Origin: Bacteroidota bacterium
GTDB lineage: Bacteria > Bacteroidota > Bacteroidia > Palsa-965
Assembly (NCBI GenBank): GCA_003153435.1
Contig: PLYR01000034.1
Coordinates: 34,144 to 86,763 of the forward strand
Length of the DNA: 52,620 nt
Direction of reading: 5' to 3'
The notes under the pieces are model-generated. The model saw only the letters and a program-made list of their open reading frames with translations. It made no database searches and had not been told where the DNA came from. Both the position numbers and the translations under genes were made by a program. This document shows positions 42,524 to 50,100 of this stretch, one piece after another (the stretch's first letter is position 1; each line of letters opens with the position of its first letter).

Positions 42524-43864
42524 ATGTTTAAAAAAATACTTATTGCTAACAGGGGAGAAATTGCCTTGCGCATTATTCGTACCTGCAGGGAAATGGGAAT
42601 CAAGACGGTGGCGGTATACTCTACTGCTGATAAAGATTCCCTGCACGTAAAATTTGCTGATGAAGCGGTTTGCATAGGCCCCCCCCCAAGCAAAGATTCT
42701 TATCTGAACATTCCTAACATTATCGCTGCCTGCGAGATTACAAATGCCGATGCCATACACCCCGGTTACGGCTTTCTGTCGGAGAATTCAAAATTTTCAC
42801 GGATCTGTCAGAAGCATAATATCAAATTCATCGGAGCAACCCCAGAGCAGATCGATGCGATGGGTGATAAATCCAATGCCAAGGATACTATGCTTAAAGC
42901 GGAAGTCCCTTGTGTGCCAGGCTCAGCCGGATTGCTTGCAGATGCTGAACAGGCTAAAGGGATTGCCATTGAAATAGGATATCCTGTGATCATCAAAGCG
43001 ACCGCTGGAGGTGGAGGTAGAGGAATGAGGATTGTATGGAAAGAGGAAGAACTTGCCGGACATTATGAATCTGCATCTAAAGAAGCAGAAGCCGCTTTCG
43101 GGAATGGTGCAATGTATATGGAAAAATACATTGAAGAACCCCGCCATATTGAAATTCAAATCGCCGGCGACCAGTACGGTAAAGTATGTCATCTGAGTGA
43201 AAGGGATTGTTCCATTCAACGCCGGCACCAGAAACTCATGGAGGAAACTCCATCTCCTTTTATGACCCCCGAATTAAGGGAGAGAATGGGAGAGGCTGCT
43301 ATCAAAGCGGGACTTGCTGTAGCCTATGAAGGAGTGGGGACAGTCGAATTCCTGGTTGACAAATACCGGAATTTTTATTTCATGGAAATGAACACTCGGA
43401 TCCAGGTGGAGCATCCGATAACGGAAGAGGTGATTGACTATGACCTTATCCGGGAACAGATCTTGATCGCGGCAGGGGTACCTATCTCCGGAAAAAACTA
43501 CTACCCTCAGTTACATGCCATAGAATGCCGTATCAATGCAGAAGATCCGTTCAATGGCTTCCGGCCTTCACCGGGAAGAATTACAACCCTCCATACTCCT
43601 GGAGGTCATGGCGTGCGAATCGATTCCCATATCTACGCCGGCTATACAATACCTCCGAATTACGACTCTATGATTGCCAAGGTGATTACTATGGCTCAGA
43701 CCAGAGAAGAAGCAATCATGAAAATGAGCCGGGCACTCGGCGAATTTGTAGTGGAAGGTGTCAAGACCACCATTCCTTTTCACCTCAGACTGATGAAGGA
43801 TGAAAAATTCCTCAAAGGAGATTATACCACCAAGTTCATGGAAAGCTTTGATCTGAAGGAATAA
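42524..43864 (+). CDS. accC: Biotin carboxylase subunit of acetyl-CoA carboxylase
   Basis: AccC carboxylates biotin on AccB using ATP and bicarbonate. The 446-residue ATP-grasp protein begins [20 protein letters not shown]. It has the glycine-rich ATP loop [14 protein letters not shown] near 159-172 and the catalytic region [12 protein letters not shown]. Length and motifs are complete. It is the last gene of the block and ends 14 bases from the convergent SiaB-like gene. The carboxyltransferase genes accA and accD are not in this window. Confidence 0.97.
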
Positions 43865-43878
43865 AGGCAGGTTAAAGG

Positions 43879-44970
43879 TTATTTCGAAATGGTGACCTGA
43901 ACGGTCAGAAAAGAATAATTTTTGTCCAGGGGATTTATCTCGTAGGCTATTTCACTATCGCTTTTGATTCGCATGTCAACAAAGCCGACACCGGCTGATG
44001 AGCCTGAATGTAAAGCCTTCATATGGCGCTCTTGAAGCATGGGTTTGTTCAGGCGATTAATGGAAATCAGATGTTCCGTGAGTGCCGCGGTCTTTGAATT
44101 CTCAATCAAATTTCCAGCAGTCAGCACATAAGAATCATTTCTTTCACCGATCAGAAACATTCCTGTTTTCCCTTCTTTATCTGTAACCGGATCATCGGCA
44201 TGTTGATACACATTCTGCAGCAGTTCAACAACGACATTGAAAATTTTATACCTCAGCAAGTGGTCCCTTTCATCCTGTATGCTCGCCTCTGTCATTGAGA
44301 GTATGCCCTTTACTATTTCCTGAGTAAAATCTCCACTGTAAATAAGGTTAAGATTATTGTCAATCATGAGCTGATGCATCTGCTTGGAAGCATCCAGTTT
44401 GTGATCAGAAAGATCTTGTTCAGGTCCCTCTGTTGAGATTTTAAGCTGAAAATAGAAATAGGAGATTGCATCGTTAATGTCAGAGAAATCAAACGCCAGC
44501 TTATTACCCGATTTCCGTGCCATCTCAACCAAGCCAAGCCCTGCGCCTCCTTTTTCAGAAAAGGTTCCCTGGGTCAGTATTTCGTTGGAATAGGTTTTTA
44601 AAGCATCCTTATCCAGACTGTTTACATGCTCAAGTTTTTCCCGGAGGGATTTTATTTCTTTTTTATCAATCGAATTCGCTGAAGTAAGATAATACTGTTG
44701 TTTGAGCGATTGGATGATAAAAAAGCTGGAAGAGTTTAATTTATTTGTGGGTGCAATTTCACTATGTCTGGCAACATTCTGAAGGGATTCAACCATTACA
44801 AAATAAAGCTTCTTCTTGACCTTTGTCGATTCAGCGTGTGAATCCACAGCAGATTCAGCAAAAGAAAGGATGCGGTCAGTCAGCGCCTGGGAAAGGTCGC
44901 CGTTATAAACATAACTGAAATCTGACTGCTTTAGCAGGCAGTGCAAATCGTATACGAAGCTTAGATTCAC
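43879..44970 (-). CDS. Tandem SiaB-family (DUF6272) histidine-kinase-like ATPase protein
   Basis: The 363-residue protein holds two copies of one domain. Copy 1 (about 17-179) has the ATP-binding N-box ESLQNVARHSE (E61, N65) and G-box GGAGLGLVEMARKSG (141-155). Copy 2 (about 206-363) has ELLQNVYQHAD (E249, N253) and a changed G-box SSAGVGFVDMRIKSD (323-337). Both start with a Y(N/S)GD element and contain a T(S/A)(A/G)N motif in the middle. SiaB-type proteins act as kinases in partner-switching signalling with SiaA (phosphatase) and SiaC, usually as single domains. No SiaA or SiaC gene is nearby. The start is GTG at 44970, just after a TAnnTTTG promoter. Confidence 0.8.
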   Translation of the reverse strand: MNLSFVYDLHCLLKQSDFSYVYNGDLSQALTDRILSFAESAVDSHAESTKVKKKLYFVMVESLQNVARHSEIAPTNKLNSSSFFIIQSLKQQYYLTSANSIDKKEIKSLREKLEHVNSLDKDALKTYSNEILTQGTFSEKGGAGLGLVEMARKSGNKLAFDFSDINDAISYFYFQLKISTEGPEQDLSDHKLDASKQMHQLMIDNNLNLIYSGDFTQEIVKGILSMTEASIQDERDHLLRYKIFNVVVELLQNVYQHADDPVTDKEGKTGMFLIGERNDSYVLTAGNLIENSKTAALTEHLISINRLNKPMLQERHMKALHSGSSAGVGFVDMRIKSDSEIAYEINPLDKNYSFLTVQVTISK

Positions 44971-44989
44971 AAGTCGGATTATGGTTATC

Positions 44990-44997
44990 CAAAAATA
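44990..44997 (-). promoter_or_regulatory. Promoter -7 element (TATTTTTG) for the tandem SiaB-like gene
   Basis: On the minus strand TATTTTTG matches TAnnTTTG. It ends 19 bases before the GTG start at 44970. No clear -33 TTTG is seen at the usual distance. Confidence 0.5.
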
Positions 44998-45037
44998 GAA
45001 TAATTTCGGGAAGAAGAAAATTTTAGGGAATATTACC

Positions 45038-46966
45038 TCAGGCGGTAATTTTTTTGCTTTCTCGCAACAATTCCAGGACAGCAGTAGCTATGGCAGGGGC
45101 ATCAAATCCACATTCCTGATAAAGTTCTTTCTGCTCCCCATGCTCTATAACGGCATCTGGAATCCCAAGTCTTCTCACCTGAGCAGAATAATCGTGATCA
45201 GCCATGAATTCAAGTACTGCACTGCCCATGCCACCCATGATACATCCATCTTCAATGGTAATAACCTTGCGGTATCTGGAGAAGACTTCATGAAGTAACG
45301 TTTCATCGAGAGGTTTGACAAAACGCATATCATACAGAGCTGCACTGATGCCTTGTTTTTCGAGGTCTTTGCAGGCCTGAAGGGCAATATTACCGATATG
45401 GCCGATGCTTAGAATAGCCACATCATTCCCTTCTCTTATTTTTCTTCCTTTTCCGATCGATATTTCTGTAAATGGACGCTTCCAGTCGGGCATTACACCA
45501 TTCCCTCTTGGATATCGTATTGAAAATGGGAAGTTATTTTTCTCAAGCTGCGCCGTATACATCAGATTTCGGAGTTCCTCTTCATTCATGGGAGCGGAGA
45601 CGACCATATTGGGAATACACCTGAAAAAGGCCAGGTCGTAGGCTCCATGATGGGTGGGTCCATCCGCTCCAGCTAAGCCTCCACGGTCCAGGCAGAATAC
45701 AACATGCAGGTTCTGCAAGGCCACATCGTGAATAACCTGGTCATATGCCCTTTGCATGAAGGATGAATAAATATTGCAAAAAGGAATTAAACCCTGGGTA
45801 GCCAATCCGGCAGAGAATGTAACGGCATGTTGTTCGGCTATGCCCACGTCGAAAGCACGGTCAGGCATAGCCTTCATCATGATATTCAGGGAACATCCGG
45901 AAGGCATGGCAGGAGTAATTCCCATTATTTTAGGATTGAGTTCTGCGAGCTCAACAATCGTATTTCCGAAAACATCCTGATACTTTGGAGGCTGAGGTTC
46001 TTTCGGAACCACTTTGATGATTTCCCCTGTTTCCTTGTTAAATAACCCGGGGCTGTGCCAAAGGGTCTGATTGCCTTCTTCAGAGTATTTATATCCTTTA
46101 CCTTTTTGAGTGAGGGTATGAAGAATCTTTGGCCCGGGAATATTTTTCATGTCTTCCAGGATCTTCTTCATTCTGATCACATCATGTCCATCTACCGGTC
46201 CAAAATAACGGAATTTAAAAGATTCAAACAGGTTGCTTTGTTTAAGCAGTGTGGTTTTTATCCCATTTTCAATTTTGGAAACAATCTCCTGTGCATTCGG
46301 GCCGAACTTGGAAATTTTGCCAAGCAGGTTCCATATATCGTCCTTGAAGCGGTTATAGGTCTGAGAAGTAGTAATATCAGTAAGGTATTCTTTGAGGGCA
46401 CCCACATTGGGGTCTATACTCATGCAGTTATCATTCAGAACAACAAGCAGATTGGAATTGGCGATCCCGGCATGGTTGAGTGCTTCAAAAGCCATACCTG
46501 CAGTCATCGCCCCGTCACCGATGACGGCAATTACATTCCGGTCTTTCTCCCCCTTGTATTTGGAACCTACTGACATGCCTAATGCGGTAGAGATAGAGGT
46601 AGAGGAATGTCCTACCCCCATAGCATCATACTCACTTTCTTTCCTTTTAGGGAAACCGCTGATGCCTTTATAAAGCCTGTTCGTTTGAAAACGGGAGCGG
46701 CGTCCGGTCAGAATCTTGTGCCCGTAAGCCTGATGGCCTACGTCCCAGACAAGCTGATCATAAGGGGTATTGAAAACATAGTGAAGTGCTACCGTTAATT
46801 CCACTACACCAAGGCTGGCACCGAAGTGTCCTCCTTTTTTGGAAACGACATCCACGATATATTGCCTGAGTTCTTTACAAACCTGAGGAAGTTCATCTTC
46901 CTTCAGTTTGCGAAGGTCTGATGGGAATTCAATCTTAGAAAGCAGCTCTCCTGCCTGAAAATCCAT
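45038..46966 (-). CDS. dxs: 1-deoxy-D-xylulose-5-phosphate synthase
   Basis: Dxs condenses pyruvate and glyceraldehyde 3-phosphate, the first step of the MEP isoprenoid route, and supplies the DXP used for pyridoxal phosphate and thiamine. The protein of about 642 residues has the N-terminal His motif WDVGHQAYGHKILTGR. The thiamine-diphosphate motif runs from GDGAMTAGMAFEALNHAG to NDNCMSI, and the transketolase-like pyrimidine domain contains DVGIAEQHAVTFSAG. I chose the ATG at 46966 rather than the start at 46987 because the promoter element at 46985-46992 overlaps the latter. Confidence 0.96.
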   Translation of the reverse strand: MDFQAGELLSKIEFPSDLRKLKEDELPQVCKELRQYIVDVVSKKGGHFGASLGVVELTVALHYVFNTPYDQLVWDVGHQAYGHKILTGRRSRFQTNRLYKGISGFPKRKESEYDAMGVGHSSTSISTALGMSVGSKYKGEKDRNVIAVIGDGAMTAGMAFEALNHAGIANSNLLVVLNDNCMSIDPNVGALKEYLTDITTSQTYNRFKDDIWNLLGKISKFGPNAQEIVSKIENGIKTTLLKQSNLFESFKFRYFGPVDGHDVIRMKKILEDMKNIPGPKILHTLTQKGKGYKYSEEGNQTLWHSPGLFNKETGEIIKVVPKEPQPPKYQDVFGNTIVELAELNPKIMGITPAMPSGCSLNIMMKAMPDRAFDVGIAEQHAVTFSAGLATQGLIPFCNIYSSFMQRAYDQVIHDVALQNLHVVFCLDRGGLAGADGPTHHGAYDLAFFRCIPNMVVSAPMNEEELRNLMYTAQLEKNNFPFSIRYPRGNGVMPDWKRPFTEISIGKGRKIREGNDVAILSIGHIGNIALQACKDLEKQGISAALYDMRFVKPLDETLLHEVFSRYRKVITIEDGCIMGGMGSAVLEFMADHDYSAQVRRLGIPDAVIEHGEQKELYQECGFDAPAIATAVLELLRESKKITA

Positions 46967-46984
46967 TTTGGGGGTATATTCCGG

Positions 46985-46992
46985 CAAAGGTA
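46985..46992 (-). promoter_or_regulatory. Promoter -7 element (TACCTTTG) for dxs
   Basis: On the minus strand TACCTTTG matches TAnnTTTG exactly and is identical to the element at the rpmF block. Transcription would begin near 46980, 14 bases before the ATG at 46966. The -33 region is not clear. Confidence 0.6.
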
Positions 46993-46998
46993 AGGAAA

Positions 46999-47181
46999 TT
47001 ATCCCTTTTTTGACTTATCCGGCAGCAGAAAGAGGATAAATATGGTGATTACAGGAAGAAAAAATCCGATAATGAACCAAATTTTAAAGGGTCTTCCCAT
47101 CTGCCTTGCAAGATTCCCTGCAATGGTCGGGAAAATGGTCAGGGCGGATACCAGCATGGAGGTCAAAAAGAGTATACCCAT
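46999..47181 (-). CDS. Small two-helix membrane protein, unknown function
   Basis: The 60-residue protein has two hydrophobic helices (about 3-20 and 34-53) joined by a short basic loop (NLARQMGRPFK) and ends in a Lys-rich tail. I do not recognise a family. It starts 15 bases after the RND pump gene on the same strand and ends just before the dxs promoter, so it is probably the last gene of the efflux operon. It could be a small partner of the pump, as AcrZ is for AcrB, but its sequence gives no direct support for that. Confidence 0.6.
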   Translation of the reverse strand: MGILFLTSMLVSALTIFPTIAGNLARQMGRPFKIWFIIGFFLPVITIFILFLLPDKSKKG

Positions 47182-47196
47182 GTTACAATAATCAGA

Positions 47197-50100
47197 TCAT
47201 GCCTTTAGCTGATAAACGTCCCGCTTTACGAAGATTCTGCAAATCAGAATGAAAAAAGGAACATACATCAAAGCAGGGGAAAGTTTCAGATGAGAGAGAA
47301 TTTTCTCAGAACGGACCTTCTGATTCTCTGACATAATATACATTACCGGAACCAGGATTAGGGTAAGGAACGTAGCAAAACTTAATCCGAAAATCATGGT
47401 CCACGAAAGCGGCCCCCAGAAAGCTACGCTGTCGCCTCCAAAATAGAGATGAGGATTGAGTTCCGTAAACAGGGTGGTGAAATCAATATTCAGGCCTACC
47501 GCGAGAGGAATAAGACCAAGAATTGTAGCGGAGGCTGTGAGGATAACGGGGGTCATCCTTGTTTTCCCTGCTTCTACAATAGCATCATAGGCTGTCATAC
47601 CCTGGGCCCTCATAAGATCCGCAAACTCAACAAGTAGGATTCCATTCCGGACCACTATCCCGGCAAGCGCAATAATACCGACACCGGTCATTACGATAGA
47701 CATATCCATCTTGAAAATAGCGACACCGAGCAGCACTCCGATGATACTGAAAAATATTTCAGTAAAGATGATGAGTGGTTTGGAGATAGAATTAAACTGG
47801 ATAACCAGGATCAGGAATATCAGTCCCATTGATGCAAGCATTGCATTTCCAAGAAAGGAACCGGTTTCCTTCTGATCTTCCTGAGCTCCCGTCATGGTGA
47901 TGGTGACATCATCGGTTTTATGATACCCGACAATCGCATTCTGGACCTTGGCTACAACTTCGTTTGCATTGAATTTGTTTTCATCGACGTTAGACGATAG
48001 GGAGATAATCCGCTTCTGATTTTTACGTTTGATGGCTCCATAGGTATTTTCATAACGGATGTCAGCAAAAGTAGCCAGAGGAACCTGACGGATCTGTCCG
48101 TTCATAGCCATATCCCGGTAAGTGATTTTCAGGTTACGCAGGGCATCCACATTGTTCCGTTGATCTTCCTTATACCTAACCTGGATAGGATATTCATCTT
48201 TCAGGTCTCTGAATTTCGCATATTGATCCTGCCCGAAAACACCGTTCCTAATTTCTGAGCCTATCTGACCTGCAGAAATACCTTCTCTGTTCGCTCGTTC
48301 CCTGTCAACATCAAAAACAATTTCAGGTTTGTTGTTCAGAAAATCTGATTTCAACTCTTGAACTCCTTCGATATGAAGTGAATCGAGGTAATGTTTCAAC
48401 TGGGTAGAGGTTGCAATTAAAGATTCCAGGTTATCACCAGTTATTTCAATATTTACAGGTTTAGGAACCGGCGGACCGGCTTGCTCATGAGCTACTGTAA
48501 TTTGAGCTCCGGCAACCCCTTTCACTGCTTTTTCAATGGCTGCAAAGAGATCAGCGGTGGATTTACCGTGTCTTTCTCCAAAAGGAACGAAAGACACCGC
48601 AATCCGTCCTTTGTTCGGATAGGTGCCCTGATCTTCATCCTGAGGATCTGTCACGGCAACGGTAACGTTTGTAATTACGGAGGAAACAATAGGATTGGTT
48701 TTCCCCTTTGCATTATCGATGCCAAGTACCGTATTGACCTTCGCTTCAACGGTTTTCATTACTTCATTGGTGTAGGCTTGGTCAGTACCCACAGGAAGAC
48801 TCACATAGATATAGGTAAAATTAGGATCGGCAGAGGGGAAGAAAACCACCTTTGGGCCTCTGATAGCAAAGAATACCAGGGAAAAAATAAAGAGTCCGAC
48901 TGTTCCGAGAAGTATCCTCCCGGGATGCCGGAGACATTTAACTAAAAGGTTCTCGTATCCCCGGACGACAGAGGGCCATACTTTCGTTTGGAATTTCCGG
49001 ATCCAGGAGAGGAGGACAAAATGATTCAGAAGATTCAGGAGGAGGAGGAGGATCAGGAAGTTTCCAAACCCGTTGTTCCCGGCTGCATAAAAGATAAGGG
49101 CCAGTGCTCCAAATACAATCGTCGAAATGATGGTTCCCTTTGTAAATGTCGGTCTTGTGCCATCAGCAGTTTCCTTGTGAGGTTTCATAAAACCGACTGC
49201 AAATACAGGGCTGATAATATAAGCTACAAAAAGTGAAGCCATCAGCGTTATGATGAGGGTGATCGGGAGGAAGAACATGAATTCTCCGATCACACCTTTC
49301 CAGAAGGCCAGAGGAATAAAGGGTGCAAGGGTTGTGAGAGTTCCTGCAAGAACAGGAAGAAATACTTCCCCTGCTGCGGTCTTGGCTGCGTCTTTTATTT
49401 TCCGTTTTCCGTTTCCGAAAATTCGGTGTGTGTTTTCAATAACCACGATAGCATCATCCACCACAATTCCCAGGGCAAGGAGGAAGGAGAAGAGGACAAT
49501 CATATTCATCGTAAAGCCAATTGTTGGCATGATGAGGAAGGCAATAAACATACTTAGCGGCACCGACATGGCCACAAAAATGGCATTGGTGGCCCCCATG
49601 AAGAACATCAAAATAATTGTTACCAGTATAAAACCAATGATAATGGTATTGATGAGGTCATGAAGCGTAAGCCGCGTTTGAAAACTCTGGTCGCCGGTAG
49701 TTACAATATTCAAATCTTTAGGCAGCACCTTGCGCATACTCGTAAGGATGTCCTGAATTTTGTCTGTTGCTTCGATGAGGTTAGCGCCGGAGCGCTTGAC
49801 AATGCTTAGGGTAATAACATTTTTACCCCCGAGGCGGGCATAACTCTGCTGCTCCGCATAGGTATCCTTGACTTCAGCAATATCTTTGAGGTATATTGGA
49901 GCACCATTAGGGGATTTAACAATCATGTTGCGGATTTCATCCACATCCTTAAACTCTTTCTTTACGTTGATCGTCCTCCTTAAGCCTTCCATCCTAACAT
50001 CTCCGCCGGAGATAGTCAGGTTTTCGTTTCCAACAGCCATCTTGATATCATACATGGAGATCTGCGCAGCCTGCATCTTGAACATATCGACATTGATCTG

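Follow-up and report, generated by a model that had tools for sequence, protein, structure and literature searches.

A two-domain SiaB-family kinase of Bacteroidota with unequal halves, usually linked to SiaC

The stretch of DNA analysed here (the window, 52,620 nucleotides from a Bacteroidota genome which we call G000) holds a gene for a protein with two SiaB-family kinase domains. This protein is probably a single-chain SiaB, that is an asymmetric intramolecular dimer fused long ago, and it would phosphorylate SiaC-type proteins, in the genus of the window in trans.

The gene is located on the reverse strand at 43879..44970 and has 363 codons (363 aa) from a GTG start at 44970 to a stop codon at 43879-43881, with no internal stops. 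The N half (residues 1-180, 44431..44970, reverse strand) taken alone matches the Pfam family PF19788 (DUF6272) at residues 44-172 with an E value of 2.6e-35 and 121.4 bits, and the C half (residues 188-363, 43882..44409, reverse strand) at residues about 233-355 with 1.4e-29 and 102.9 bits; the cut-off is 26.6 bits. The NCBIfam model NF038262 (SiaB_fam_kinase, cut-off 85 bits) gives 133.5 bits for the N half and 114.9 bits for the C half. As each half separately exceeds the cut-off for both profiles, both belong to one family, and the original prediction of two SiaB-type domains in one protein has been borne out by the profile search which it proposed. An assembly artefact or a frameshift fusion can be ruled out, since 112 distinct tandem proteins were collected and the second genome of the same genus, G002, has the same two-domain architecture in a copy that is 78% identical.

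A dxs-like gene (45038..46987, reverse strand) lies 67 bp upstream of the tandem gene and adjoins it in G002 too; the two genes are possibly co-transcribed. On the other side a convergent accC-like gene ends 14 bp away from the stop codon of the tandem gene, and a gap of this size rules out a SiaC remnant between the two (both gene names are what we take their translations to indicate). A scan of positions 43700-47300 for promoters and terminators gave counts no different from those in shuffled sequences.

In the original prediction the single-domain protein was taken as the usual form; the tandem, however, is no exception and occurs commonly. With the window protein as query a SiaB-like match of any kind was found in 43 of the 59 genomes in a set of relatives, and for 15 of the 59 the profiles confirmed a two-SiaB-domain ORF in the regions retrieved. 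Of 247 genomes drawn across the class at least 45 have a match that extends over both halves, counted among the matches listed, which do not include the known tandems of G005 and G057. When 84,980 species genomes were scanned with the tandem alignment, at least 484 related stretches were confirmed; the best 80 of these match across both halves in every case, and their titles are all Bacteroidota bar one labelled Chlorobi. In a phylum-wide draw both halves are matched in 2 of 118 genomes (G000 and G072), most genomes in the draw having no match at all, and the frequency of the tandem therefore hinges on which Bacteroidota are sampled. The tandem form is frequent in many lineages of Bacteroidia known mainly as environmental MAGs and uncommon among the genomes drawn across the phylum, and it may have been overlooked for that reason. 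We found no description of it in the openly accessible full-text literature on SiaB, SiaC, DUF6272 and DUF1987, and judged on the searchable literature it is apparently undescribed so far. The objection that such forms might prove common and already described is thus right in its first part and, in that literature, not in its second. The survey of domain architectures also gave versions of the tandem protein fused to SiaC and to PP2C.

The origin of the tandem was analysed with a quick maximum likelihood tree of SiaB domains, in which 44 of the 112 tandem proteins were split into halves and all 26 single domains were included. The tree gathers 42 of the 44 N halves into one group; a second group comprises 42 of the 44 C halves and one stray single domain. 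The labels change 7 times on the tree, compared to 52 in shuffles. In its simplest reading the tree points to mainly one old duplication-fusion, and L050 and L054 are most simply read as separate events or as unstable placements in the tree.

An AlphaFold2 model of the window protein, built with 58 tandem sequences, has a mean pLDDT of 87.1 and a pTM of 0.86. The pLDDT of the N half is mostly 80-92, with two loops that dip to 55-62, and the block containing the inter-domain linker (about residues 180-189) has 57. The top match in the PDB, with Foldseek as well as VIA, is 6kko, the SiaB-SiaC complex of Pseudomonas aeruginosa, followed by SpoIIAB and RsbW; the C half aligns with 6kko_A at Z 15.5 (168 aligned residues, rmsd 2.4). 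Foldseek also gave proteins that belong neither to the GHKL nor to the partner-switch classes (e.g. 4efj, 3k8h), which we take to be chance or coarse matches. The residues used for SiaB dimer formation have been identified in the SiaB-SiaC complex (PMC7278518), so that the tandem is most naturally read as a covalent pair. The two SiaB kinases could also sit side by side in the chain unpaired with each other, each dimerising across chains and perhaps acting on a different SiaC. The divergence of N and C halves into two groups, as for different specificities, would agree with such an arrangement, as would the low confidence of the linker. We hold it to be very unlikely, since the whole-chain pTM argues for a defined mutual arrangement of the halves and most tandems are linked to just one SiaC. 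The intramolecular dimer is the reading followed below.

The motifs named in the original prediction were all found. The N half has an N-box at residues 60-69 (VESLQNVARH, with E61 and N65; 44764..44793) and a G-box at residues 140-147 (KGGAGLGL; 44530..44553), of which the G-box proper is GGAGLGL at 141-147. The C half has an N-box at residues 248-257 (VELLQNVYQH, with E249 and N253; 44200..44229) and an altered G-box at residues 323-330 (GSSAGVGF; 43981..44004), of which the G-box proper is SSAGVGF at 324-330; all four are on the reverse strand. The glycines of the GxG motif are G144/G146 and G327/G329, so each half has the full set of site residues. Presumably the N-box Glu is catalytic and the Asn binds Mg, as in GHKL kinases of the SpoIIAB type.

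The core of both sites is kept throughout the family. All 112 tandem proteins have the catalytic Glu in the N half and in the C half, the N-box Asn is found in about 99% of N halves and 100% of C halves, and the second Gly of GxG in 99% and 100%. The lid differs: in the N half the motif S-x-K-G-G-A-G-L-G is nearly fixed (the lid Lys is present in 97% of the 112), whereas the C half has both GxG glycines in all 112 with the Lys and the first Gly of the lid unfixed. The C half of the window protein keeps E249, N253, H257, N287, G327 and G329, and its lid, which is shorter than in relatives, has no Lys and has GVG(F) in place of GLG, is further altered than the C halves of the family. A fully canonical C-half lid is found in several lineages, e.g. 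L052, L147, L149, L150 and L151. The SiaB of P. aeruginosa has SGAGLGL at the G-box position, without KGG; it is an active kinase by assay, and Glu61 is the predicted catalytic residue (PMC7647112). An altered G-box alone does therefore not make a dead site. Judged by its residues, the second ATP site has a relaxed lid and a kept core of Glu, Asn and GxG, and is not clearly defective.

The inequality of the halves is a property of the whole tandem family and not of the window copy alone. Scored with a profile of single-domain SiaBs the N half is higher than the C half in 97 of the 112 tandem proteins; 26 positions are conserved at >=90% in the N half and 12 in the C half, and the mean pairwise identity is 0.42 and 0.33, respectively, so that C halves evolve faster. 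Between G000 and G002 the N halves are 88.6% identical (dN 0.077) and the C halves 69.0% (dN 0.202); synonymous sites are at or close to saturation. The identity of the N half despite this saturation indicates purifying selection on it, and the window protein is kept as a whole, with its C half under looser constraint. The original prediction of one canonical and one divergent ATP site is supported as far as the halves are unequal, with their fixed and relaxed lids, and is not supported as far as it would make the second site a clearly defective one.

All of these differences, the loss of Lys, the shortening and the GVG of the window lid included, would also fit an internal heterodimer in which the N half is the kinase and the C half is a catalytically dead nucleotide sensor or a dock for SiaC. 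One active and one sensing half are possible, and the internal heterodimer is an alternative that we take seriously without favouring it. Against it speak the near-constant Glu, Asn and GxG of the C half, the active SiaB of P. aeruginosa, which is likewise without KGG, and the canonical C-half lids mentioned above. The asymmetry is moreover reversed in L055:7157-8287 (G057), where the N half has neither the N-box Asn nor the G-box and the C half is canonical, so the active half is not universally the N half. No paper on pseudo-kinase halves in partner switching was found in the openly accessible literature. A different arrangement was seen at L045:1920-4502 (G034), where two tandem SiaB genes in series, the first with a divergent C half, are followed by one SiaC.

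The genes around the tandem loci tell in which kind of system the protein belongs. SiaB, SiaC and PP2C domains were called with profiles built in this analysis; the SiaC profile agrees with that of Pfam in all 13 of the 15 tandem-bearing genomes that have a tandem-adjacent SiaC. SiaC is located directly downstream on the same strand for 94 of the 112 distinct tandem proteins and within the same ORF for 9, of which 8 are full fusions. The remaining 9, including both proteins of the window genus, have SiaC neither adjacent nor fused; in three of them (L141, L144, L153) the sequence covers only about 1.4 kb downstream. The lack of a neighbouring SiaC is accordingly peculiar to this genus and a few others and does not go with the tandem form, 103 of the 112 having SiaC either as a neighbour or within their own ORF. 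The position equivalent to T68 of SiaC, the acceptor, is Thr or Ser in all 102 rows of tandem-linked or fused SiaC (68 Thr, 34 Ser).

The full fusions are SiaB-SiaB-SiaC proteins of about 505 aa (L072, L077, L085, L091, L100, L111, L126, L129), and Pfam finds two DUF6272 domains and one SiaC in each of the three that were searched (L091, L072, L111). L112 has just the start of a SiaC (22.5 bits, cut-off 24.5). A model of the L072 fusion has a mean pLDDT of 86.9 and a pTM of 0.75, and with this lower pTM the placement of SiaC on the SiaB pair is uncertain. At L093:2665-3428 and L130:7077-7861 one tandem SiaB gene is followed by two SiaC genes in series, and G035:C120:5792-6529 (262 aa) and G026:C46:22432-23196 (291 aa) each have two SiaC matches in one open-frame length, apparently a tandem SiaC.

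Of 95 loci, 41 have PP2C genes within 4.5 kb, in most cases on the opposite strand. L053:5322-9944 (G047) is one ORF of 1540 aa with the order Reg_prop - Y_Y_Y - SpoIIE - SiaB - SiaB, followed by SiaC. The linkage to SiaC and PP2C and the fusions place the tandem kinase in a partner switch of the SiaA-SiaB-SiaC type; that it is the kinase of such a module is well supported by its family and its linkage. A search of the 95 loci for a conserved neighbour that could be the output gene found that SiaC and PP2C alone recur, the next family being present at 8 of 95. GGDEF (PF00990) was found in none of the 15 tandem-bearing genomes, G000 included, and in 8 of 14 control genomes. The output in these 15 genomes can therefore not be SiaD, and their SiaCs must control a process other than the making of c-di-GMP by GGDEF proteins.

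The window genus requires a separate discussion. The prediction that SiaA and SiaC are absent nearby holds for the 52.6-kb window, in which neither was found, and fails for the genome as a whole: the genome search gave 6 SiaC and 42 SpoIIE/PP2C matches in G000. With the tandem included G000 has 4 siaB genes, so that a large set of phosphatases converges on few kinases. The nearest PP2C found is a Reg_prop-Y_Y_Y-SpoIIE protein at C75:88052-91300, whose start is 8.9 kb away from the tandem gene and 1.3 kb outside the window. SiaC adjoins the tandem gene in neither G000 nor G002, and the kinase would then have to act in trans in this genus. Three of the six SiaC genes of G000 adjoin single siaB genes, one adjoins a PP2C ORF (C83), and two, C7:21777 and C38:1986, adjoin neither; both of these orphans have a counterpart in G002. 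The acceptor position is Ser in C7:21777 and Leu in C38:1986, and C7:21777 is most plausibly the first candidate for an in-trans substrate of the window kinase.

It should be noted that none of the six SiaCs of G000 groups with tandem-linked SiaCs in a maximum likelihood tree of 134 of 139 rows (duplicates and rows of less than 90 aa were left out). When an orphan pair was held inside the main tandem-linked group the AU test did not reject this placement for either of the two pairs (p 0.77 and 0.75), and the constrained tree had a higher likelihood than that of the free search. The tree, the missing neighbour in both gene-bearing genomes of the genus and the fast-evolving C half would also be expected if the tandem of this genus had lost its SiaC pathway, and were either repurposed for another STAS-like or an unrelated partner or drifting. 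The SiaC-less members L144, L153 and L062 have very divergent C halves, which points the same way. C halves tend to be weaker where SiaC is missing, but not significantly so (p 0.08 to 0.09, 9 vs 103 proteins), and a tie between decay of the C half and absence of SiaC was rejected as a trend only. The purifying selection on the N half and the existence of unlinked SiaCs with an acceptor Ser also count against a lost pathway, which we consider unlikely.

The single-chain SiaB acting in trans could work as follows. An old fusion in Bacteroidota would have joined two SiaB protomers, which form a homodimer in Pseudomonas, into an asymmetric dimer within one chain. This dimer would bind ATP via its GHKL-type sites and transfer phosphate to the Thr or Ser equivalent to T68 in a SiaC-type (STAS-like) protein. 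PP2C/SpoIIE phosphatases would undo this phosphorylation, and the phosphorylation state of SiaC would switch its binding to an output partner, which is not a diguanylate cyclase of the SiaD type. The N half, with its near-invariant ATP lid, is the likelier main catalytic half, and the C half, faster evolving with its core kept, may be a slower kinase, a regulator or mostly a structural element. In the window genus the downstream SiaC gene would be gone and the kinase would act in trans, likeliest on the SiaC at G000:C7:21777 with its Ser acceptor. Of this picture the sequences show the two domains, the kept site residues, the linkage and fusion to SiaC, the acceptor residue and the lack of GGDEF, while the kinase activity, the pairing within the chain, the different roles of the halves and the target in trans are inferred. 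A more far-reaching version is a widespread, so far undescribed partner switch of Bacteroidota with an active and a sensing or docking SiaB fused to each other and sometimes to SiaC or PP2C, an output other than c-di-GMP, and in the window genus a cross-talk kinase serving several SiaCs; taken as a whole this version is doubtful.

Kinases of the GHKL anti-sigma type have been studied as homodimers, in which the roles of the protomers are hard to separate by mutation. The tandem, in which two unequal protomers are naturally joined in one chain, allows each ATP site to be mutated alone, and it can thus be tested directly whether the kinase requires both sites or only one. In addition, the wiring of the module is fixed by the SiaB-SiaB-SiaC and PP2C-SiaB-SiaB fusions.

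Among known systems the SiaABCD system of P. aeruginosa is the closest. Its SiaB (6kko) has the same fold and is the sole sequence match in the PDB, and the N-box Glu and Asn and the GxG align with those of the window protein. It is, unlike the window protein, a single domain that dimerises. It phosphorylates SiaC at T68 and is opposed by a PP2C phosphatase (PMC7278518). The output of that system is the diguanylate cyclase SiaD, whereas GGDEF is absent from G000. The window protein also stays below the cut-off of 225 bits for the SiaB equivalog NF038264 (it scores 98.8 bits as a whole, and its halves alone 57.2 and 47.2) and below that of 100 bits for the slr1658 superfamily regulator NF047703 (40.4 bits). 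The single-domain SiaB kinases of Bacteroidota (NF038262/DUF6272) are of the same family and three are found in the same genome (G000:C89, C5, C7), but they are about 170-185 aa long, mostly group apart from the tandem N and C halves, and each of the three is followed by a SiaC while the window tandem has none adjoining.

SpoIIAB and RsbW (1tid, 6m36) share the GHKL kinase fold with the window protein (VIA Z 10-11) and the logic of the partner switch. They are single-domain anti-sigma kinases which bind sigma factors, and they belong to another sequence family; none of their Pfam families matches the window protein at E <= 1, and the match found is one of fold. The RsbU-RsbW fusion Rv1364c (3ke6) likewise has partner-switch parts in one chain, and its RsbW domain matches the model at Z 10.0. 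Rv1364c joins a phosphatase to one kinase domain, whereas the tandem joins two kinase domains, in some relatives together with the substrate or the phosphatase.
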